DNA of 30,002 nucleotides, taken from positions 1 through 30,002 of IMG/VR virus record IMGVR_UViG_3300008259_000113; one strand, 5' to 3'. The notes beneath the pieces are model-generated. The model saw nothing but the letters and a program-made list of their open reading frames with translations. It did not search any database and was not told where the DNA came from. Below are positions 1 through 30,002 of this stretch, piece after piece (the stretch's first letter is position 1; each line of letters opens with the position of its first letter). Made by a program: the position numbers and the translations under genes. The stretch is from a virus.

Positions 1-53
1 AATGAGAGACCAATTCATAAGGATAGCGATGGCGCAACTGCGCCCCGCTTATC
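1..53. repeat. Terminal direct repeat, left copy
   Basis: The first 53 bases are identical to bases 29950-30002. A gene starting at base 2 reads through this copy, and the other copy holds the start of the same gene. This is what a circular or circularly permuted genome looks like when assembled into a linear contig. A true short terminal repeat of a linear virion DNA cannot be excluded, but the repeat cuts through a coding sequence without special structure, so an assembly overlap is more likely. Confidence 0.95.
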
Positions 54-2575: not shown

Positions 2576-3719
2576 GACCAATAAGGTATTTGGCCACCTA
2601 AAGCGAAGCACTAAAAAGATAGTAGTCGAGCAGGGCGGTACCCGTAGCGGAAAGACATACAATATCCTGCTATGGATCATATTCCATTACACGGATAAGA
2701 ACGAAGGCAAGACCATCACGATCTGCCGTAAGACGTTCCCTGCGCTCCGGGCTTCTGTTATGCGGGACTTCTTTGAGATCCTCCGGAACCACGACATATA
2801 CAATGAGATCTACCACAACAGGTCGAATAGCGAGTACTACCTAAATGGGAACCTTGTGGAGTTTATCAGCCTTGACCAACCCCAGAAGATAAGGGGGCGC
2901 AAGCGCAACCTCCTGTACATTAACGAAGCCAATGAGCTGACGTACGAGGACTGGCAGCAGCTCATAATGAGGACCGAGGATCGTGCGATACTTGACTACA
3001 ACCCTTCGGATGCGTTCCATTGGATTTATGATAAGGTCGTACCGAGGGATGACTGCGACTTTTTTCAGACCACGTACCTCGACAATATGTTTTTAGATCA
3101 GAGCATCAAGGATGAAATCCTACGGCTCAAGGATACGGATAACGACTACTGGCGTATCTATGGTCTGGGGGAAAGGGGTATGAGTAGAGCCACGATATTC
3201 CAGTACGGGCAGTCCGAGATACCAACGGATGCAAAGCTCTTATCATTTGGCCTTGACTTCGGGTACACGAATGATCCCAGCGCACTGGTTGCAGTATATG
3301 AGGCAAACGGAAGCCTTTACTTTGATGAACTGCTATACCGCACGGGGATGACCAATAACGATATCGCAAATATCTTTACCTCCATCGGTATCGATAGGCG
3401 CAGCGAGGTATATGCTGATAGCGCAGAGCCCAAGTCAATCGAGGAACTATACCGAAGGGGCTACAATGTAAAGCCCACGACCAAAGGCCCCGACTCGGTG
3501 AACGCAGGAATCGATATAATGAAACGCTACAAACTATTTATCACTCCCCGGAGCATCAATCTTGAAAAGGAGATGCGTAACTACAAATGGACGGAGGATA
3601 AAAATGGAAACCTCCTTAATAAGCCTATCGATGCTTTTAACCACGCAATCGATGCTGCGAGGTATGCTATCTTTAGCAAGAAAAATAATCCTAACTTTGG
3701 CAGATATTCTGTAAGATGA
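2562..3719 (+). CDS. terL: Terminase large subunit (PBSX-type)
   Basis: The 385-aa packaging motor and nuclease. Walker A is GGTRSGKT (25-32), and the Walker B region is LLYINEANE (117-125). The C-terminal RNase H-fold nuclease has D232 in FGLDFGYTNDPSAL, D286 in YADSAEPKSIEEL and the final acidic site in DAFNHAIDAARY (357-368). The start must be the TTG at 2562, because the next in-frame ATG lies after Walker A; this start gives a 14-base overlap with the small subunit. The next gene begins inside its stop (ATGA). It is a complete, slightly compact member of the family, and the best marker for placing this phage in a tree. Confidence 0.95.
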   Translation: MAKIETNKVFGHLKRSTKKIVVEQGGTRSGKTYNILLWIIFHYTDKNEGKTITICRKTFPALRASVMRDFFEILRNHDIYNEIYHNRSNSEYYLNGNLVEFISLDQPQKIRGRKRNLLYINEANELTYEDWQQLIMRTEDRAILDYNPSDAFHWIYDKVVPRDDCDFFQTTYLDNMFLDQSIKDEILRLKDTDNDYWRIYGLGERGMSRATIFQYGQSEIPTDAKLLSFGLDFGYTNDPSALVAVYEANGSLYFDELLYRTGMTNNDIANIFTSIGIDRRSEVYADSAEPKSIEELYRRGYNVKPTTKGPDSVNAGIDIMKRYKLFITPRSINLEKEMRNYKWTEDKNGNLLNKPIDAFNHAIDAARYAIFSKKNNPNFGRYSVR

Positions 3720-4636
3720 TATACGTAGCAGGACAACCGGGTGGGGTTTACTACCACCGCCTCCAGATACCATACGAGGACTTGCTGATGCGAGGCTACC
3801 TAATTAAGTTTGGAACAATACAGGAACTCGATAAGTATAAGGATGCAATCACGCACCTTGTGGTAAACCGAGGGCTTGCGACAAAGAATCACAAGGCGTT
3901 CCGGTATATGCTGGATAAGAACAATATAAAGCTTATCCTCGACCTCGATGACTGGTGGATGCTACCGAGGCATCACGCTAATTATAGCACACAGAAAACG
4001 CAGGATATCTTAATGACTATCAAGATAGCCGATGAGATCCATACGACCAATGAATACCTTGCGAGCAAGATCCAAAAAGAAAATCCCTACGTACCTATCT
4101 GGGTACTGCCTAATGCGATAGACCCACGCAGATCTCAATGGGAGGACATAGAAAAGGTAGAGGGCTTCAATGTCGGGTATATGGGTGCTTTGCATCACGA
4201 TGAAGACTTGGCGTATAACCGCATCAATTTAGAGGGACTTAATGCTTACACCATTGAGTACTATAAAGAGTCGCTAAAGGCTTCTAATGCGTTCCAGAGG
4301 GCTGACTACTTAGACTACGGCAAACTATATAAGAACATCCACGTCAGTATCGCCCCACTTTCACCGAGTGCCTTTAACAGATGCAAGTCAAACCTAAAGG
4401 CTCTGGAGGCTGGCTTTACCAAGACGTGCATCATAGCTCAAGATATGCATCCCTATACCCCGTTGCTGAATAAGAGCAACTCTATCCTCTGCAAGGGGCC
4501 GGGGCATTGGGAAGAGGAACTACGGAACCTCGACCCTCAGAGGTGCGCTGACCTTGCAGAGAAACTTTATGAGGACGTACAATTTTTTCACATTACGAAT
4601 ATCAACGATACACGCCAGCAATGCTTCGCACAATAA
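3716..4636 (+). CDS. GT-B fold glycosyltransferase
   Basis: A 306-aa glycosyltransferase of the GT-B type. The N-terminal half has a nucleotide-fold start (MIYVAGQPGGVYYHR) and the strand LILDLDDWWMLP. The C-terminal donor domain shows VGYMGALHHDED and the motif VSIAPLSPSAFNRCKSNLK, then ALEAGFTKTCIIAQDMHPY, where the family usually binds the sugar nucleotide; the EAG turn is the classic E-x7-E region in a degenerate form. The C-terminus is shorter than in cellular GT4 enzymes. It sits directly behind the large terminase with an ATGA overlap and is followed by the tail chaperone with a 16-base overlap, so it is expressed with structural genes. It may decorate virion proteins; with the first glycosyltransferase it could also act on modified DNA. 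Confidence 0.78.
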   Translation: MIYVAGQPGGVYYHRLQIPYEDLLMRGYLIKFGTIQELDKYKDAITHLVVNRGLATKNHKAFRYMLDKNNIKLILDLDDWWMLPRHHANYSTQKTQDILMTIKIADEIHTTNEYLASKIQKENPYVPIWVLPNAIDPRRSQWEDIEKVEGFNVGYMGALHHDEDLAYNRINLEGLNAYTIEYYKESLKASNAFQRADYLDYGKLYKNIHVSIAPLSPSAFNRCKSNLKALEAGFTKTCIIAQDMHPYTPLLNKSNSILCKGPGHWEEELRNLDPQRCADLAEKLYEDVQFFHITNINDTRQQCFAQ

Positions 4637-23429: not shown

Positions 23430-23441
23430 TTTGTATCTTTG
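23412..23441 (+). promoter_or_regulatory. Bacteroidota promoter TTG-N19-TATCTTTG
   Basis: TTG at 23412-23414, a 19-base spacer, then TATCTTTG at 23434-23441, a full match to the Bacteroidota consensus. Transcription should begin near 23446, giving a leader of about 20 bases that contains AAAACCAATC (23452-23461) before the ATG at 23466. Confidence 0.8.
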
Positions 23442-23465
23442 TCTGGAACTTAAAACCAATCAGTT

Positions 23466-23606
23466 ATGACTTTATCTTTTTCAGCAGACGTTTACACCGA
23501 AATGGTGCAAGTGCAACAAGCACAAATCCAAGCACTCCAAAACAAGGTAGCAGAGCTTCAAGCTCGTATCGAGGTTCTGGAGCAGCAAGCAATTCTATTT
23601 ATCTAA
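23466..23606 (+). CDS. Small coiled-coil protein (46 aa)
   Basis: Starts ATG 23466 after the leader AAAACCAATC-agtt, ends TAA 23604-23606. After MTLSFSADVYTEMVQ it is a single coiled coil with regular heptads (QIQALQNKVAELQARIEVLE) and ends AILFI. Leu/Ile/Val occupy a and d positions for about four heptads. Such a short zipper would form a dimer or pair with a partner protein. The gene is directly behind a strong early promoter and is followed 14 bases later by the SSB-like gene with a second copy of the leader motif. No family known. Confidence 0.65.
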   Translation: MTLSFSADVYTEMVQVQQAQIQALQNKVAELQARIEVLEQQAILFI

Positions 23607-23614
23607 AACCAATC
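23605..23614 (+). promoter_or_regulatory. AAAACCAATC leader before SSB-like gene
   Basis: AAAACCAATC begins in the stop codon of the coiled-coil gene and ends six bases before the ATG at 23621. There is no promoter of its own here, so the motif works at the RNA level (translation start) or marks internal initiation. Other copies: 23452, 24117 (ACACCAATC), 27544 and 27824. Confidence 0.5.
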
Positions 23615-23620
23615 TATACT

Positions 23621-24040
23621 ATGTCAAAAATTATTTCAATCACCCCAACAGGGCAATGGCAGGATCTCTTCAAATTAGAGGTGAGGTTCGACAATGGCGA
23701 CTTCGGTACTGCCTTTGCCAAATCACAAACCCCTCCCTACAATGTAGGCGATGAGGTAGAGTACACCAAAAATGAAAAGGGCACGGTGAAAATCCAACGC
23801 CCTAACTCTTTTGGAGGTGGATACACACCATCTGCTGCCCCAAAAGGCAACGATGATCGTTCCGCTTCTATCATCCGACAGGTTGCTCTAAAGGCTGCGG
23901 TGGAGTATGCTTGTGCTGCCAAGCACGATGTGAACACGATCCTCGCTAATGCAGAGACCTTTAACGCTTGGATGACTGGTCAGAGCGCAGCCCCTGCCTC
24001 ACATACCGAGCATTTCGCAAATCGTAACGACCCTTTCTGA
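23621..24040 (+). CDS. SSB-like single-stranded DNA-binding protein candidate
   Basis: A 139-aa protein. The first 60 residues look like an OB-type barrel (SITPTGQWQDLFKLEVRFDN, then YNVGDEVEYTKNEKGTVKIQ), followed by a Gly/Pro-rich linker (FGGGYTPSAAPKGNDD), a helical segment (SIIRQVALKAAVEYACAAKH) and a Ser/Ala/His tail ending NRNDPF. The ending D-P-F after an acidic/polar tail resembles the DDDIPF tip of bacterial SSB that recruits replication partners. I therefore propose an SSB role; the IRQ-x-x-x-KAA helix is also seen in phage ssDNA-binding relatives. A terminator follows directly. Confidence 0.55.
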   Translation: MSKIISITPTGQWQDLFKLEVRFDNGDFGTAFAKSQTPPYNVGDEVEYTKNEKGTVKIQRPNSFGGGYTPSAAPKGNDDRSASIIRQVALKAAVEYACAAKHDVNTILANAETFNAWMTGQSAAPASHTEHFANRNDPF

Positions 24041-24066
24041 TTGGTTTTTTAATGGCCGTTACGTGA

Positions 24067-24091
24067 AGCCCCTCTACGGAGGGGTTTTTTT
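24067..24091 (+). terminator. Rho-independent terminator
   Basis: CCCCTC-TACG-GAGGGG stem (24069-24084) followed by seven T. It is 28 bases after the SSB-like stop and closes the short early unit 23446-24040. Confidence 0.92.
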
Positions 24092-24107
24092 ATGTCGATT
24101 ATTTTTC

Positions 24108-24115
24108 TATATTTG
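24108..24115 (+). promoter_or_regulatory. Bacteroidota -7 element TATATTTG
   Basis: TATATTTG at 24108-24115 matches TAnnTTTG. At 19 bases upstream lies the T run of the terminator rather than TTG, so the -33 box is weak. The start site near 24120 would give a leader of about 12 bases including part of ACACCAATC (24117-24125) before the helicase ATG at 24133. Confidence 0.6.
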
Positions 24116-24132
24116 TACACCAATCAGAAATA

Positions 24133-25065
24133 ATGATACATCCAGACCTACTACCTAACGAATCTTCGTTACCCTACCTCCAGAGAGCACTCAAAGGAAA
24201 GTACTACGACACCGGAAAGCTCGGAGTCTATGAAGTAGATCAATGGCTGAGGCTTAAAGATGGGGAGTTCGTAGTCGTGGTCGGCCACGCTAACGTAGGC
24301 AAGACCCATACGCTCCTTTACCTTATGCTGCTGCAGTCGTATAACTTCGGCAAGAAGTGGCTGATCTATTCGGCAGAGAACGAAGTGCCCAGCCTCAAGC
24401 GAAAGCTGATTGAGTTCTTAGTGTGCAAACCAATCCAAGGAATAGATGAAGGGATGATGTTCCGGAAGCTGGATTTTATTAACGAGTACTTCCAGTTCAT
24501 AGATGGCAACAGGCTATTCACCGCCTTTGAACTTCTGGAGGTTATGGATTCTATTAAGAACGAATGGAACTATACCGGGGCACTTATCGATCCATACAAC
24601 TCCCTATCCACGGATCAAAAGAAATTAGGCAAGACTGGGATGCACGAATACCATTACGAGGTAGCCTCTGCGCTCCGGGTATTCGCTCACAAGAATAACG
24701 TAACGACAATCGTAAACGCTCACCCTGTAACAGAGGCAATGCGCAAGGTATTCTATAAAGGCCACCCGTATGAAGGGATGGCGATGCCTCCCAATACCTC
24801 GGACATTGAAGGTGGGGGCAAGTGGGGCAACCGCAGCGACTGCGTAATCGTGATACATCGGTTCGCTGCTCACGAAACAGATTGGATCTACACGCATATC
24901 CACGTACGCAAGATCAAGGAGATGGAGTCTGGAGGACGCATCACGCCCCTCGAAACACCCTTAGTTTTACAGAGCATTCTGGGTAACGTGGGCTTTTGCA
25001 TAAATGGCCGTAACTTGCTCCCGATAAAAACAGATGAAACACCTGCGAGCGATGTACCCTTCTGA
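24133..25065 (+). CDS. RecA-fold helicase/ATPase (DnaB-C or KaiC-like)
   Basis: A 310-aa ATPase, probably the replicative helicase or a recombination ATPase. Walker A is GHANVGKT (51-58); Walker B is ALIDPYNSL (150-158), and NAHPV with the nearby GGGKWGNRSDCVIVIHR matches the sensor and arginine-containing strands of DnaB-type domains. There is no DnaB N-terminal domain or primase. The last residues DETPASDVPF resemble an SSB-type tip (D-x-P-F), unusual for a helicase. It is the first gene of a long unit from 24133 to 27469 and overlaps the next gene by 32 bases. Confidence 0.72.
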   Translation: MIHPDLLPNESSLPYLQRALKGKYYDTGKLGVYEVDQWLRLKDGEFVVVVGHANVGKTHTLLYLMLLQSYNFGKKWLIYSAENEVPSLKRKLIEFLVCKPIQGIDEGMMFRKLDFINEYFQFIDGNRLFTAFELLEVMDSIKNEWNYTGALIDPYNSLSTDQKKLGKTGMHEYHYEVASALRVFAHKNNVTTIVNAHPVTEAMRKVFYKGHPYEGMAMPPNTSDIEGGGKWGNRSDCVIVIHRFAAHETDWIYTHIHVRKIKEMESGGRITPLETPLVLQSILGNVGFCINGRNLLPIKTDETPASDVPF

Positions 25066-25363
25066 CGATAGCCACGACCTGTATATCCGGGAGAAGCAGT
25101 TGATGCTTGCAGGGACTGCGATGTGGCTGGCGAAGCAAGCAGCAGACAAAGCAAACGGCAGAGAGGTACAGGATGACCTGCTCCACCACGTTATGAGCTG
25201 CCATTATGCAGACCTACTCCTGCAGCAGTTCATAGACTACCGCCAGTTCACCGAGGGCAAGATGAACGAGATGTACTTGGCGAACTCAAAACTCCGGGTG
25301 GATGCGGAGCAAATGATATACGAGATACAACGCCTGCAAGGCATAATCGAAGATCAGCTTTGA
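25034..25363 (+). CDS. Helical hypothetical protein (109 aa)
   Basis: Starts at 25034 inside the helicase gene; an ATG at 25052 (MYPSDDSHDLYIRE) would give 103 aa and a smaller overlap and is equally possible. All-helical: LMLAGTAMWLAKQAADKANG, LLHHVMSCHYADLLLQQFID and a C-terminal coiled coil (LRVDAEQMIYEIQRLQGIIE). No known domain. Its stop overlaps the TTG start of the next gene. Its place directly behind the helicase makes a loader or partner role conceivable, but nothing in the sequence proves it. Confidence 0.55.
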   Translation: MKHLRAMYPSDDSHDLYIREKQLMLAGTAMWLAKQAADKANGREVQDDLLHHVMSCHYADLLLQQFIDYRQFTEGKMNEMYLANSKLRVDAEQMIYEIQRLQGIIEDQL

Positions 25364-25590
25364 AACAGATACTCAGCCCCTTCCAGAAGTACGAGTGCTT
25401 TGCAGTCGATGGGGTGGACTATCTGGTAATCGACTACACAATAATCCAAGACCGGGATGACAAATTAGTGGAGTGGGCGAGTGAGATGAAGTTTAAAAGA
25501 CTTAAAGACCATAAGCACTACACTATGCCAATCAGTAAAATAATAACCAATCATAAAGAGGGCAGAGCAAAACTCTGTAAATGCAAATGA
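25360..25590 (+). CDS. Hypothetical protein (76 aa)
   Basis: Starts with TTG in the stop of the upstream gene (TTGA). It has a beta-like first half (KYECFAVDGVDYLVIDYTII) and a basic second half (MKFKRLKDHKHYTMPISKII) ending LCKCK, with three Cys in total. No family recognised. It overlaps the DnaA-like gene by ten bases. Translation is supported by tight coupling on both sides. Confidence 0.5.
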   Translation: MKQILSPFQKYECFAVDGVDYLVIDYTIIQDRDDKLVEWASEMKFKRLKDHKHYTMPISKIITNHKEGRAKLCKCK

Positions 25591-26000
25591 GACCCTTCGA
25601 AATACGCCAACTAAAAGTAAGTAAAGAGCAATACTATGCCCGTCTGGGATTCCAAGACAATGGAAGTAGAGCGCATAAAGAATCAACCGCCCGTGCAGCA
25701 TTCGTATCCGCATTCCGGAACCACGCTACGCTTCACGAACTGGGGGAGGCAATAAACAAAGACCATAGCAGCGTAGCCTATGCCGTAAGGATGCACCAGT
25801 CCCGGTTAATCTACGGAGATTATCAGCATTACTTTAAGGTAGCCTGCGGAGTTCTGGAGGATAACCCTATGGCGTGGGTTGACAAGCCCGACTATGATTC
25901 GATGCAGCAGGAGTTAAATAAACTCAACGAGGTCGTGATGGAGTTATCTAAGTACAAAGAATTGTACATAACCCTAAAGAAAACATTCGATGAGTTTTAA
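25581..26000 (+). CDS. DnaA domain IV-like DNA-binding protein
   Basis: A 139-aa protein whose middle resembles the DNA-binding domain IV of DnaA: ARAAFVSAFRNHATLHELGE (37-56), then INKDHSSVAYAVRMHQSRL (58-76). The block DHSSVAYA corresponds to the DHTTV-x-x-A signature that contacts DnaA boxes. No AAA+ ATPase domain is present. The first 30 residues are basic, and the C-terminal 50 are helical coiled coil (SMQQELNKLNEVVMELSKYK). It could bind the phage origin, or compete with host DnaA. It lies two genes behind the helicase. Family link by motif only, so a general HTH protein is possible. Confidence 0.6.
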   Translation: MQMRPFEIRQLKVSKEQYYARLGFQDNGSRAHKESTARAAFVSAFRNHATLHELGEAINKDHSSVAYAVRMHQSRLIYGDYQHYFKVACGVLEDNPMAWVDKPDYDSMQQELNKLNEVVMELSKYKELYITLKKTFDEF

Positions 26001-26133
26001 CGTAAACATTTGGCCTCTTACTGGATTGCTGCTTGGCGTAAACTACGCCTCGACCACAGATCAAGATGGCGAAGACTTACAACACGAGCTGCAGTTTGCT
26101 CTATTTGTCATAATCGTAGAGCTTGTCTGGTGA
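25990..26133 (+). CDS. Small protein with hydrophobic segments (47 aa)
   Basis: From ATG 25990 to TGA 26131-26133: it begins MSFNVNIWPLTGLLLGVNYA, has an acidic centre (STTDQDGEDLQHELQ) and ends with a hydrophobic stretch (FALFVIIVELVW). N- and C-terminal hydrophobic parts around an acidic turn suggest membrane attachment. I recall short Bacteroidota phage proteins with the same NIWP-x-x-G-L-x-x-G-V-NY start. It overlaps the DnaA-like gene by 11 bases, and its stop overlaps the GTG start of the sigma-like gene, which also fixes that gene's start. Confidence 0.65.
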   Translation: MSFNVNIWPLTGLLLGVNYASTTDQDGEDLQHELQFALFVIIVELVW

Positions 26134-26675
26134 TCGCTGCCTTTTACATAGAGAACCGCTACAAGTTAGCGAACTTTATTAAAGGCTATGCCGGGGATTT
26201 TGAACTGGCAGAAGATGTGGTGCAGGAAGTATTTTTAAGGCTCCTGCTTCTGGAGGCAGAGGGCAAGACTCACTTTGCTCAAGACGGCAAGGTAAACTTT
26301 TTTTTTGTTTACCGGGCTTGCGTAAACCTGTGCATTAAACTATCGACCGCAAAAAAGAAATTTCAGAAGATCAGCTTCGGGGATATCACGGAACTCGATG
26401 AGTGGCTGCAAGCAACAGACGAGCAATACCCCTACGAATTGGATGCCCGGTATGAGGATTTACTTAGTACCTTAAACGATCAAGTCGAAACCTTACGCTG
26501 GTATGATAAGGAAGTACTCAAACTAAGCCTTGAGCATTCCGTGAGCAGCCTCGCTCGGGGCACCACTATATCCAGAGACTCATTACGCAACACCCTAAAA
26601 ATAGCAAAAGATGAAATCAAGCAACGAACAGAGCCCAGCTACAAAGCGTGGAAGGAAGCCGAAGGGCTTGGGTGA
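26130..26675 (+). CDS. Sigma-70 family (ECF-like) RNA polymerase sigma factor
   Basis: A 181-aa protein starting with GTG in the stop of the 47-aa gene (GTGA). A longer frame from TTG 26010 exists, but its first 40 residues are the 47-aa gene read in another frame and are Arg/Cys-rich noise. Region 2 is recognisable: YKLANFIKGYAGDFELAEDV followed by VQEVFLRLLL (11-40). Region 4-like HTH: WYDKEVLKLSLEHSVSSLAR, then GTTISRDSLRNTLKIAKDEI (124-163). Between them is a linker of about 80 residues. It could redirect host RNA polymerase to middle or late phage promoters; this would explain why late genes lack TAnnTTTG boxes. Overlaps the next gene by 65 bases. Confidence 0.7.
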   Translation: MIAAFYIENRYKLANFIKGYAGDFELAEDVVQEVFLRLLLLEAEGKTHFAQDGKVNFFFVYRACVNLCIKLSTAKKKFQKISFGDITELDEWLQATDEQYPYELDARYEDLLSTLNDQVETLRWYDKEVLKLSLEHSVSSLARGTTISRDSLRNTLKIAKDEIKQRTEPSYKAWKEAEGLG

Positions 26676-27012
26676 TGTAGTGGAGTCAATCACTACCGCT
26701 ACGGGGATCAAAGCTGCGGTAGATTGGTTCAGCGAAGCCACGGGGGTGGACTGCGGATGCGATGCTCGTAAGGCAAAGCTCAATAAGATGTTCCCGATTA
26801 ACAATCCGGAGTGCTTGACTAAGGATGAGTACGACCTTATCGGGTCGGTCATAGGAGCGCATCAGCTTACCCACGTTCAGAGGGTGAGGATAGCGGAGAT
26901 CCACGCAAGGGTCTTTAGGCATAAGTTCGTAGTTCCGTGTACCTGCAGCCCTAAACTCTGGGCTAAATGGATCAAGAACCTCACGGAGCTACATACGGCT
27001 TATGAAGTATAA
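26611..27012 (+). CDS. Conserved phage protein with CGC motif (133 aa)
   Basis: Starts at 26611 inside the sigma-like gene. After a basic lead (ATKRGRKPKGLGD) comes SITTATGIKAAVDWF, then GVDCGCDARKAKLNKMFP (45-62), a block I know from Bacteroidota phages and prophages without an assigned function. The second half (CLTKDEYDLIGSVIGAHQLT, HVQRVRIAEIHARVFRHKFV) ends with a C-T-C pair. Four Cys (CGC and CTC) could bind a metal. It overlaps the nuclease gene by 11 bases. Confidence 0.6.
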   Translation: MKSSNEQSPATKRGRKPKGLGDVVESITTATGIKAAVDWFSEATGVDCGCDARKAKLNKMFPINNPECLTKDEYDLIGSVIGAHQLTHVQRVRIAEIHARVFRHKFVVPCTCSPKLWAKWIKNLTELHTAYEV

Positions 27013-27469
27013 CGCCCGGAAGTTTGTCCAAGCATCCTATGATCGTAACGATGACTGGGGCAAAGAGGTCGTTATGCGATGGCTTACCTCCCACGGCAAT
27101 AGGTTCACGATTGTGGATAAGGTGATCGAGGATTACAAGGTTGATATATTGGCTTACGATAGCAAGGCTGGTAAAGAGGTTGGCTTCGAGGTAGAGGTAA
27201 AGCATAAGTACCCGTTCTCGGATGCGGATTCTTTTAAGTTTGATACCGTGAGCTTCTTGGGTAGAAAAAAGAAATACGGGGACTTCTGGTACGTGATCGT
27301 TTGCGGAGAGACGGAGGCTCTGCTTCTGGCGCATAGTTTTGAGATATACAAGGAAGAGTACCGAGAGCTGCAGACTATAAACACCAACGAAAGGAACGGG
27401 CTGGATGAGTTCTATCGAGTTCCAAAAGACAAGTGCTTGTTTTACAAGACTATGAAGGGGGGGCAGTAG
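27002..27469 (+). CDS. PD-(D/E)XK-type nuclease candidate
   Basis: A 155-aa protein with the core YKVDILAYDSKAGKEVGFEV followed by EVKHKY: Asp48 and Glu65-x-Lys67 give the D...ExK pattern of restriction-type nucleases. The first helix (WGKEVVMRWLTSHGNRF) and the strand FWYVIVCGETEALLL after the core fit the fold. The C-terminus (YRVPKDKCLFYKTMKGG) is basic. No partner methylase is nearby, so a role in phage DNA metabolism or host DNA degradation is likely. It ends the long early unit; a terminator overlaps its stop. Confidence 0.6.
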   Translation: MKYNARKFVQASYDRNDDWGKEVVMRWLTSHGNRFTIVDKVIEDYKVDILAYDSKAGKEVGFEVEVKHKYPFSDADSFKFDTVSFLGRKKKYGDFWYVIVCGETEALLLAHSFEIYKEEYRELQTINTNERNGLDEFYRVPKDKCLFYKTMKGGQ

Positions 27470-27483
27470 CCCTCTTTTTTTTA
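27456..27483 (+). terminator. Rho-independent terminator
   Basis: GGGC-AGTA-GCCC with additional G before the stem, then TCTTTTTTTT. It overlaps the last codons and the stop (TAG) of the PD-(D/E)XK gene, ending the transcription unit that began near 24120. The stem is short but very GC-rich. Confidence 0.75.
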
Positions 27484-27503
27484 TTTATTTTTTTATTGAA
27501 TTG

Positions 27504-27533
27504 TTGGTAATTCAAAAAGTTGTATTATATTTG
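27504..27533 (+). promoter_or_regulatory. Bacteroidota promoter TTG-N19-TATATTTG
   Basis: TTG 27504-27506, 19 bases, TATATTTG 27526-27533. Start near 27538; the leader of about 18 bases contains AAAACCAATC (27544-27553), and the ATG follows at 27557. The same distances occur in the 23412 promoter. Confidence 0.85.
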
Positions 27534-27556
27534 GGTATAATTAAAAACCAATCGTT

Positions 27557-27805
27557 ATGAAAAACTCCACTATCTCAAACATCTCTTACAGCATTGTTGT
27601 AGTTCAAAGCACGTCAGTTAATACTCACGCTTATACTTTTGATCAGTTGTTTAACAACAAAATAGAAGATGGCTGCGACTGGGAATTTGTTTATGCTCTT
27701 AATATGATCACAGAAGATATTTTGAAATTATCTAAAGGTGATAGCCTATACTTCAAGTCAAACAGAGATGAAGAGTCAAAGGGAATTATTGTCCGCATCA
27801 GTTAA
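27557..27805 (+). CDS. Hypothetical early protein (82 aa)
   Basis: First gene behind the 27504 promoter. It has an N-terminal beta part (SISYSIVVVQSTSVNTHAYT in approximate form), DQLFNNKIEDGCDWEFVYAL in the middle and a C-terminal LSKGDSLYFKSNRDEESKGI. No family recognised. More AT-rich than the structural genes. Strong promoter and first place in the unit suggest an early host-takeover protein; this is inference. Confidence 0.6.
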   Translation: MKNSTISNISYSIVVVQSTSVNTHAYTFDQLFNNKIEDGCDWEFVYALNMITEDILKLSKGDSLYFKSNRDEESKGIIVRIS

Positions 27806-27823
27806 TAAAAAATCAACAATCTA

Positions 27824-27833
27824 AAAACCAATC
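27824..27833 (+). promoter_or_regulatory. AAAACCAATC leader before 27837 gene
   Basis: AAAACCAATC three bases before the ATG at 27837, with no TAnnTTTG box between the two genes. This copy again argues for a translational rather than transcriptional role. Confidence 0.5.
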
Positions 27834-27836
27834 GCA

Positions 27837-28157
27837 ATGTTTAATAAATATCAATGGCTCAAAGAGCAAAAGGAATCCCTAAAGGAATATATCGTAACGG
27901 AATGGGCTAATGGCAATACTCCAGACTACGGAGAGGTTTGCGAGAAGCTGCAGAATGACATAGACAACGATGTCATTTACTACAATGCTTGCTGGGATAT
28001 CTGCAAGGAGCTTGCTCCCTGTAACGAGTGGGACAAGATGGAATTTGGCCCGGTAACGAACCTTGCTCAACTTGCATACATATCCCTGTATGAATTTGCT
28101 AATGAGAATTTAGATCTGGAGGAATTACTTAACGAAACACTTAACGAAAATGCATAA
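27837..28157 (+). CDS. Acidic hypothetical protein (106 aa)
   Basis: A strongly acidic helical protein: MFNKYQWLKEQKESLKEYIV, then CEKLQNDIDNDVIYYNACWD and a C-terminal LYEFANENLDLEELLNETLN. Three Cys. Acidic, small early phage proteins sometimes inhibit restriction enzymes by mimicking DNA (ArdA, Ocr), but no specific family motif is visible. The next gene starts inside its 3' end. Confidence 0.55.
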   Translation: MFNKYQWLKEQKESLKEYIVTEWANGNTPDYGEVCEKLQNDIDNDVIYYNACWDICKELAPCNEWDKMEFGPVTNLAQLAYISLYEFANENLDLEELLNETLNENA

Positions 28158-29749: not shown

Positions 29750-29898
29750 CCGACATCACCAAATGCACAGGAGAGGGCTGCGCCCTCAAAGAAACCTGCT
29801 ACCGCTTTACCGCAACAACAGGAATGTATCAGTCGTTCTTTTTTGAGGTACCAATCAAGAACGGCAAGTGTGAGTACTATTGGAATACTAACCTTTAA
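29746..29898 (+). CDS. Small Cys protein, zinc-knuckle-like (50 aa)
   Basis: Starts in the exonuclease stop (ATGA), ends TAA 29896-29898. Cys at KCTGEGCALKETCYRF and later GKCEYY: C-x4-C-x5-C and a distant fourth Cys, a pattern for one zinc. I recall the start TKCTG-x-x-C-x-LK-x-x-CYR from small proteins of Bacteroidota phages next to nuclease genes. Its stop codon lies inside the first copy of a 15-base direct repeat. Confidence 0.65.
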   Translation: MTDITKCTGEGCALKETCYRFTATTGMYQSFFFEVPIKNGKCEYYWNTNL

Positions 29899-29943
29899 CA
29901 CCATATCGTTGAACCCAACAAAATGGTATAACCTTTAACACCA
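29889..29943. repeat. Direct repeats flanking a hairpin at the module border
   Basis: TAACCTTTAACACCA occurs at 29889-29903 and 29929-29943, 40 bases apart. Between them ACCAT-atc-GTTG-aacc-CAAC-aaa-ATGGT (29900-29927) can fold to a hairpin with a symmetric inner loop. The second copy ends seven bases before the ATG at 29951, so the repeat may be a leader or regulator site. The first copy includes the stop codon of the Cys protein. Confidence 0.6.
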
Positions 29944-29949
29944 AAGAGA

Positions 29950-30002
29950 AATGAGAGACCAATTCATAAGGATAGCGATGGCGCAACTGCGCCCCGCTTA
30001 TC
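29950..30002. repeat. Terminal direct repeat, right copy
   Basis: Exact copy of bases 1-53. It contains the first 17 codons of the small basic gene that continues at base 2 of the left end, so this gene is cut only by the linear drawing of the circle. Confidence 0.95.

Follow-up and report, generated by a model that had tools for sequence, protein, structure and literature searches.

Phages that recur across a viral metagenome collection, and whose gene control is little known, carry a short sequence motif directly before the start codons of several of their early genes. We describe it for a freshwater virus of Bacteroidota type, on a stretch of 30,002 nucleotides (IMG/VR record IMGVR_UViG_3300008259_000113, positions 1 to 30,002; referred to below, at its full length, as the window), in which AAAACCAATC or the related ACACCAATC precedes five genes and a single reverse-complement copy lies at the stop codon of a gene for an SSB-like protein. 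Judged from sequence comparison, and with a probability that we put at about 0.7, a base-pairing RNA encoded by the phage recognises the motif as its target; this RNA would be the 3'-terminal part of the SSB-like mRNA (window 24038-24091, plus strand). The proposal draws its main strength from related phages, in which the sequence at the SSB stop codon and the leaders of the presumed target genes have changed together. If it is true, RNA pairing is the basis of a circuit by which these phages control early genes.

Leaders and a proposed complementary seed in the window

Exact copies of AAAACCAATC occur before a gene for a 46-amino-acid, coiled-coil-like protein that is first in the SSB unit (motif 23452-23461, gene 23466-23606), before the gene for the 139-amino-acid SSB-like protein itself (motif 23605-23614, intercistronic and overlapping the preceding stop codon, gene 23621-24040), before an 82-amino-acid gene without known family (27544-27553 and 27557-27805) and, again intercistronically, before a 106-amino-acid gene (27824-27833 and 27837-28157). 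The gene for a DnaB-like helicase of the primase/helicase family (24133-25065) is preceded by ACACCAATC followed by A (24117-24125). All of these features are on the plus strand, and the motif ends 4, 6, 3, 3 and 7 nucleotides (nt) before the ATGs at 23466, 23621, 27557, 27837 and 24133, respectively. A preliminary description of this DNA had reported the five leaders and the reverse copy, and they were found where it had placed them. It had also held that the genes at 23621 and 27837 have no promoter of their own, which agrees with their starts lying 14 and 31 nt past the previous stop codon and with the lack of a TAnnTTTG box, the promoter element as described in PMC9723704; such boxes, read by eye, precede the SSB unit (23434-23441), the helicase gene (24108-24115) and the 82-amino-acid gene (27526-27533), all on the plus strand. 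The heptamer ACCAATC occurs 12 times in the window against 3.2 expected, and AAAACCAATC with at most one mismatch nine times against 2.2 expected, counts reached in none of 100 shuffles in either case.

The reverse copy at 24039-24048 is the only exact minus-strand 10-mer in the window. It forms part of UGAUUGGUUUU (24038-24048, plus strand), which starts with the stop codon of the SSB-like gene and is the reverse complement of the leader motif; this copy, mentioned only in passing in the preliminary description, is, to judge from the sequence, most likely the seed of the regulator. Predicted duplexes between seed and leaders amount to -13.0 kcal/mol for the 46-, 82- and 106-amino-acid genes, -11.8 for the SSB-like gene and -10.4 for the helicase gene, and these are the five best among the 44 starts of the window, the sixth reaching -8.0 and the median being -5.6. 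The top five are all early or accessory genes, a restriction to non-structural genes that resembles that of the start-associated sequences (SAS) of mycobacteriophages considered below, as does the scarcity of the motif in the 395 Bacteroidota genomes treated further on.

Downstream from the seed, the sequence folds into an intrinsic terminator (24065-24091, plus strand) with a 10-bp stem (24065-24088), a 4-nt loop and a T run extending to 24091. The proposed RNA of 54 nt (24038-24091) would thus consist of seed, short linker and terminator, and its fold has a free energy of -19.6 kcal/mol (z -2.9). Among related loci, a terminator-like structure follows the SSB-like gene in 154 of 165 cases, compared with 16 of 638 other genes, and the T run lies 40-59 nt past the stop codon. 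As in small RNAs derived from 3' untranslated regions, the terminator would be shared with the mRNA and the seed would lie at or near the predicted 5' end. A search of Rfam yielded no match over threshold, the score for STnc100 over 24036-24097 being 22.5 bits against a gathering score of 47.

Joint change of seed and leaders in three phage types

Close relatives of the window were fetched by helicase similarity (best 80 of 268), further loci were reached via the helicases of three more distant loci, and others, at least those listed, were found by pattern search. The set used for estimating enrichment held 163 of 190 loci after removal of copies, namely the loci found by similarity, four found by pattern (L112, L156, L175 and L176) and the window, with 1.71 Mb and 3638 called genes in total. 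ACCAATC was located within 22 nt of a called start in 28 of 299 protein families. When one gene was taken per 80% identity group, it was the most enriched of all leader 7-mers, being present in 34 of 660 groups against 0.82 expected from dinucleotide frequencies, and the 139 other permutations of its letters averaged 1.4 in the same groups. The preliminary description had named an equal frequency of the motif at random places as the outcome that would count against it, and this is not what was seen, the motif with an ATG being far sparser in Bacteroidota genomes than in virus records (counts given below). The leader consensus is AAAACCAATCA, with the final A present in 27 of the 34 leaders, and the spacing to the ATG varies from 2 to 7 nt. 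A short conserved sequence stands in one orientation near many starts, and the layout of SAS, with about 3-9 nt to the start codon, is of this kind.

Three phage types, A, B and C, were distinguished by the sequence at the SSB stop codon (UGAUUGGUUUU, UAGUGUGUGUGUU and UAGGUGUUUCA), with 120, 13 and 31 representatives, respectively, among 165 distinct SSB loci and a single locus belonging to none. In the 120 type A loci the reverse 10-mer was seen 86 times at the SSB stop and twice elsewhere. A survey of 152 SSB-like genes revealed 115 with GATTGG past the stop together with the motif before the start, 30 with neither and seven with GATTGG only; these seven carry a G-U variant leader, AAAACCAGTC, before the SSB-like gene and the normal motif before the helicase gene in the loci shown. 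The 3' ends of the 30 genes with neither begin with TAGTGTGTGTGTT or TAGGTGTTTCA, and the helicase starts of the same phages, AAACACACA or ATGAAACACC, are complements of the SSB 3' end of the respective phage. Perfect complements of at least 8 nt link 76 of 77 distinct pairs of SSB 3' end and helicase start, as against 2.8% for shuffled 3' ends.

Each of the three seeds was then compared with every called leader (-25 to -1), and a complement of at least 8 nt was required. For loci found by similarity only (146 of 146 distinct loci; 102 A, 13 B and 31 C), the leaders fitting seeds A, B and C numbered 192, 2 and 1 of 1234 in type A phages, 0, 9 and 0 of 151 in type B and 2, 0 and 17 of 291 in type C, and same-sense copies of any seed occurred in one leader in each type. 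Addition of the pattern-found loci changed these counts to 305, 2 and 1 of 1712, to 0, 14 and 0 of 183, and to 2, 0 and 19 of 363, and shuffled seeds attained the count of the own seed in 0, 3 and 0 of 100 trials for A, B and C. Counted per protein family, the values were 41, 1 and 1 of 234 (type A), 0, 6 and 0 of 46 (type B; p 0.03 against seed A) and 2, 0 and 5 of 64 (type C). When the first codons were included, 76 type A starts fitted seed C, compared with one for leaders only.

Three protein families are targeted in more than one phage type. One of these, a small membrane-like protein of 42 residues, is identical at 39 of 42 positions between locus L336 (type A) and locus L677 (type B), and the respective leaders, ATTAAAAACCAATCAA and ATTAAACACACACACA, each fit the seed of their own phage. 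For the steadily targeted type A families (helicase, SSB and the 46-amino-acid protein), the departures from the exact leader comprise four C to T and five A to G changes, all of which keep G-U pairing, and four further non-exact leaders look like miscalled starts. A single seed fits up to nine leaders per locus. In a tree of the helicases, types A, B and C each occupy one side of a branch, such that the type counts are not independent events and the seed and leaders must have switched at least twice. Complementarity to the start regions of targets thus survives sequence change, as is required of a base-pairing RNA, and we consider it well supported, at the level of sequence, that this complementarity is specific and has been kept while both sides changed in the three types. 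The switch among types A, B and C also constitutes a ready-made compensatory experiment of natural origin.

In some type C loci (L425, L421 and L409) a tRNA-like stretch, read by eye, separates the helicase gene from the SSB 3' end. At L425 both the seed and its fit to the helicase start are retained.

Proposed mechanism and alternative explanations

The seed would pair over 8-11 nt with leaders 3-7 nt before the AUG, and the predicted targets in the window are the 46-amino-acid gene, the SSB-like gene itself, the helicase gene, which is a target in all three phage types, and the accessory genes at 27557 and 27837. No promoter-like box was seen within the final 77 nt of the SSB-like gene in any of the 165 loci; the RNA would therefore come from the SSB mRNA, and processing would be needed to free its 3' end, unless the whole mRNA is the active molecule. 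Pairing in the cell would have to extend to distant genes in trans, and transcripts that read through into the helicase gene may in addition be affected in cis. Since the stretch engaged in pairing coincides with the binding region of the 30S subunit, which the ribosome must occupy, pairing would probably repress by blocking translation. The SSB message would then lower the expression of its own unit, of the helicase and of other early genes, and, since the SSB-like gene and the one preceding it are among the targets, replication genes would be under negative feedback. The rule relating seed and leader also allows regulated genes to be predicted from sequence alone.

Several observations weigh against this proposal. 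The lack of a promoter-like box means that no independent transcript is predicted, and the seed is only partly open in the folds, with a mean unpaired probability of 0.45 in the window and 0.45-0.80 in ten loci. The seed of type B is a TG repeat, and its shuffles match its own count in three of 100 trials; type C is not significant alone at the family level (5 versus 2 of 64, p 0.44), and most type C helicase genes pair via the start codon and not via the leader. Targeting is partial in three type A families, with 19 of 43, 9 of 17 and 8 of 13 leaders fitting. Five leaders fit a foreign seed, and one of them is a full exception: phage L651, of type C, has an A leader that is perhaps a recent import. 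Moreover, the system is absent from one divergent locus, L603, although an SSB-like gene is present there.

A protein could account for part of the evidence. If a phage protein bound the sequence as double-stranded DNA, both at the leaders and at an inverted site after the SSB-like gene, and if its specificity had changed in types B and C with the sites following, then a reverse-complement copy and a joint change would also be expected, and the window encodes two candidates for phage transcriptional control, a protein with a weak match to the C-terminal helix-turn-helix of DnaA (25581-25997) and a weakly sigma-factor-like protein (26010-26672). We regard this as unlikely, given the fixed orientation of the leaders, the single reverse site that begins in a stop codon and has a terminator after it, and the 194 of 467 motif starts that are intercistronic and without a promoter box; the retention of G-U pairing among the departures points the same way, though transitions are common anyway. 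A slightly smaller chance is given to an effect in cis only, whereby the SSB 3' end masks the helicase start in read-through RNA and only transcripts from the helicase promoter are translated. The helicase start is indeed complementary in all three types, about 90-240 nt downstream, and a promoter box of its own precedes it in the window, but such an effect leaves unexplained the leaders upstream of the seed (23452 and 23605), those 3.5 kb downstream (27544 and 27824) and the further targets, besides the helicase, in types B and C.

The preliminary description had offered a phage translation enhancer and a binding site for an early regulator as readings of the motif. The second survives in kind, with an RNA as the most likely regulator. 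That the host ribosome reads the leader as an enhancer, Kozak-like or by pairing with 16S rRNA, with an incidental reverse copy, would explain the position directly before the ATG and would be in keeping with the preference for A at -3 and -6 in Bacteroidota initiation that is described in PMC6847099, but we consider it improbable. The spacing to the ATG is too variable for a fixed -3/-6 register, the conserved reverse copy varies together with the leaders, and related phages use AACACACACA and AAACACCTA, following their own SSB 3' untranslated region. The comparison with 16S rRNA that had been suggested yielded no exact complement of the leader longer than 6 nt in two Bacteroidota 16S genes, those found in 2 of 13 genomes searched, and as a comparison with the host it is incomplete. 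An altered 16S tail serving as an alternative anti-Shine-Dalgarno sequence was also considered; the Lacihabitans gene has the usual CCTCC tail, and the Pedobacter gene did not match the tail pattern used, an outcome from which no conclusion is drawn. Mimicry of host leaders was discarded, since among 395 Bacteroidota genomes none uses the motif as a common leader; this, and the lack of a longer complement in the two 16S genes, also counts against the enhancer. AAAACCAATC with an ATG within 8 nt is present in 322 of these genomes at about 4 per Mb or less, and at up to 5 per Mb among 30 genomes chosen for holding the motif; five virus records of 21-31 kb hold 4, 4, 4, 3 and 5 copies. A pattern scan of genome contigs gave at least 117 stretches, many of them from Bacteroidota, with the motif before true open reading frames in some and within one recurring coding sequence in others. 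Least probable of all, and in our estimate hardly worth entertaining, is that the motif marks a recombination junction for the exchange of phage genes. The same motif-bearing upstream stretch can precede different genes, but clusters that join two or more protein families are no commoner here than at other starts, 3 of 66 motif-bearing upstream clusters versus 31 of 463 lacking the motif (p 0.79).

Known systems and genomic context

The closest parallel in layout to the phage leaders described here is provided by the SAS of cluster K mycobacteriophages (PMC3203893), which are short asymmetric sequences a few nt before many non-structural starts, in one orientation, often with the upstream stop codon inside, nearly absent from the host, and with a single reverse copy away from gene starts in several phages. 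They differ in that the cluster K sequence, GGGATAGGAGCCC, has a Shine-Dalgarno core, which AAAACCAATC lacks, and the motif, being AAAACCAATC and not GGGATAGGAGCCC, is not a member of the cluster K family and is alike in layout only. In the present phages the reverse copy is associated with a terminator and varies in step with the leaders, whereas the role of the cluster K SAS, unexplained since 2011, is described as open in the relevant sections of PMC3203893, and it is left open also in those of PMC12699233 and PMC11373665. Phages Anaya, Angelica and Adephagia each have one reverse SAS copy with one mismatch, outside annotated genes (L698:44871-44883, L699:30635-30647 and L700:30683-30695), and 14 forward copies with at most one mismatch per stretch. 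In the folds of all three, the reverse copy is situated in the 10-nt loop of a 6-bp stem, and the folds around these copies are no more stable than those of shuffles (z -1.0 to -0.2). The copy is a candidate anti-SAS RNA. It is a tentative suggestion, rather doubtful at present, that SAS as a class are the targets of one co-evolving phage RNA, forming a regulon of switchable specificity, in control of early phage genes, that genes join by acquiring the leader, with cluster K as the second case. The layout offers a testable answer to why some phages have start-associated sequences.

Small phage RNAs that pair with phage messages are exemplified by c4 of P1/P7, sar of P22 and OOP of lambda, of which c4 and sar are described as blocking ant translation (PMC12197685). 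These have one main phage target, as presented there, in contrast to up to nine leaders per locus here, where, in addition, a replication gene carries the seed at its 3' end and the seed varies by phage type together with its targets. The RNA VpdS of vibriophage VP882 is said to affect several phage and host messages in trans; it is described as Hfq-dependent, and the passages on it mention no shared leader that follows a seed (PMC12197685). CisR of Vibrio cholerae, an RNA from an mRNA 3' end, pairs with and represses another message, but, as described in PMC13250501, it is encoded by the host and has a single named phage message as its target, whereas source and targets are all of phage origin in the proposed system. 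In a literature search with most subscription papers outside its scope, no published account of this motif or of an SSB-derived phage RNA was found.

The virus record carries a 53-base direct terminal repeat at window positions 1-53 and 29950-30002. On account of this repeat the record probably represents a genome of about 29.9 kb that is complete or circularly permuted. Among the proteins encoded in the window are terminase, portal, tail, helicase, RusA-like and exonuclease VIII-like ones. Named phage records gave no match to the region at the blastn level, and the helicase shows distant matches only, with 28-33% identity to Maribacter and Cellulophaga phages in 8 of 9 matching records. Based on these helicase matches and on the TAnnTTTG box of the promoters, the host is likely to belong to the Bacteroidota. 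A helicase search of genome contigs retrieved no relative, and the host was not identified by that route.

The SSB-like protein is predicted to have five strands followed by two helices, and a C-terminal PF is present in 10 of 10 aligned sequences. Its structure model is of moderate confidence (pLDDT 73, pTM 0.39) and had no match among structures at E 0.001 (best 0.084). The label SSB-like is based on the beta-rich N-terminal part, the helicase neighbourhood and the C-terminal PF, a tip that we take to be a mark of SSB.

A further leader motif, ACACCAACGAGAAATGA, was considered as a second SAS and set aside, as it is partly the coding end of upstream genes when read by eye. In the form (TTTA)ACACCAACGAGAAATGA it is found at window 29894-29960, in loci L526, L541, L554, L583, L627 and others, and in larger viral contigs, preceding many different small genes, and it is absent from the 395 Bacteroidota genomes. 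It partly encodes the C-terminal sequence YYNETFNTNEK of the upstream genes (also read by eye), and among 178 instances, 100 upstream clusters are combined with 105 downstream clusters in 160 pairs. It may represent a coding end combined with a gene-shuffling junction. Elsewhere in the window, a Mom-like DNA modification protein (1543-2169) and a glycosyltransferase (3716-4633) are encoded, for which a DNA modification directed against host defence is a possible function.

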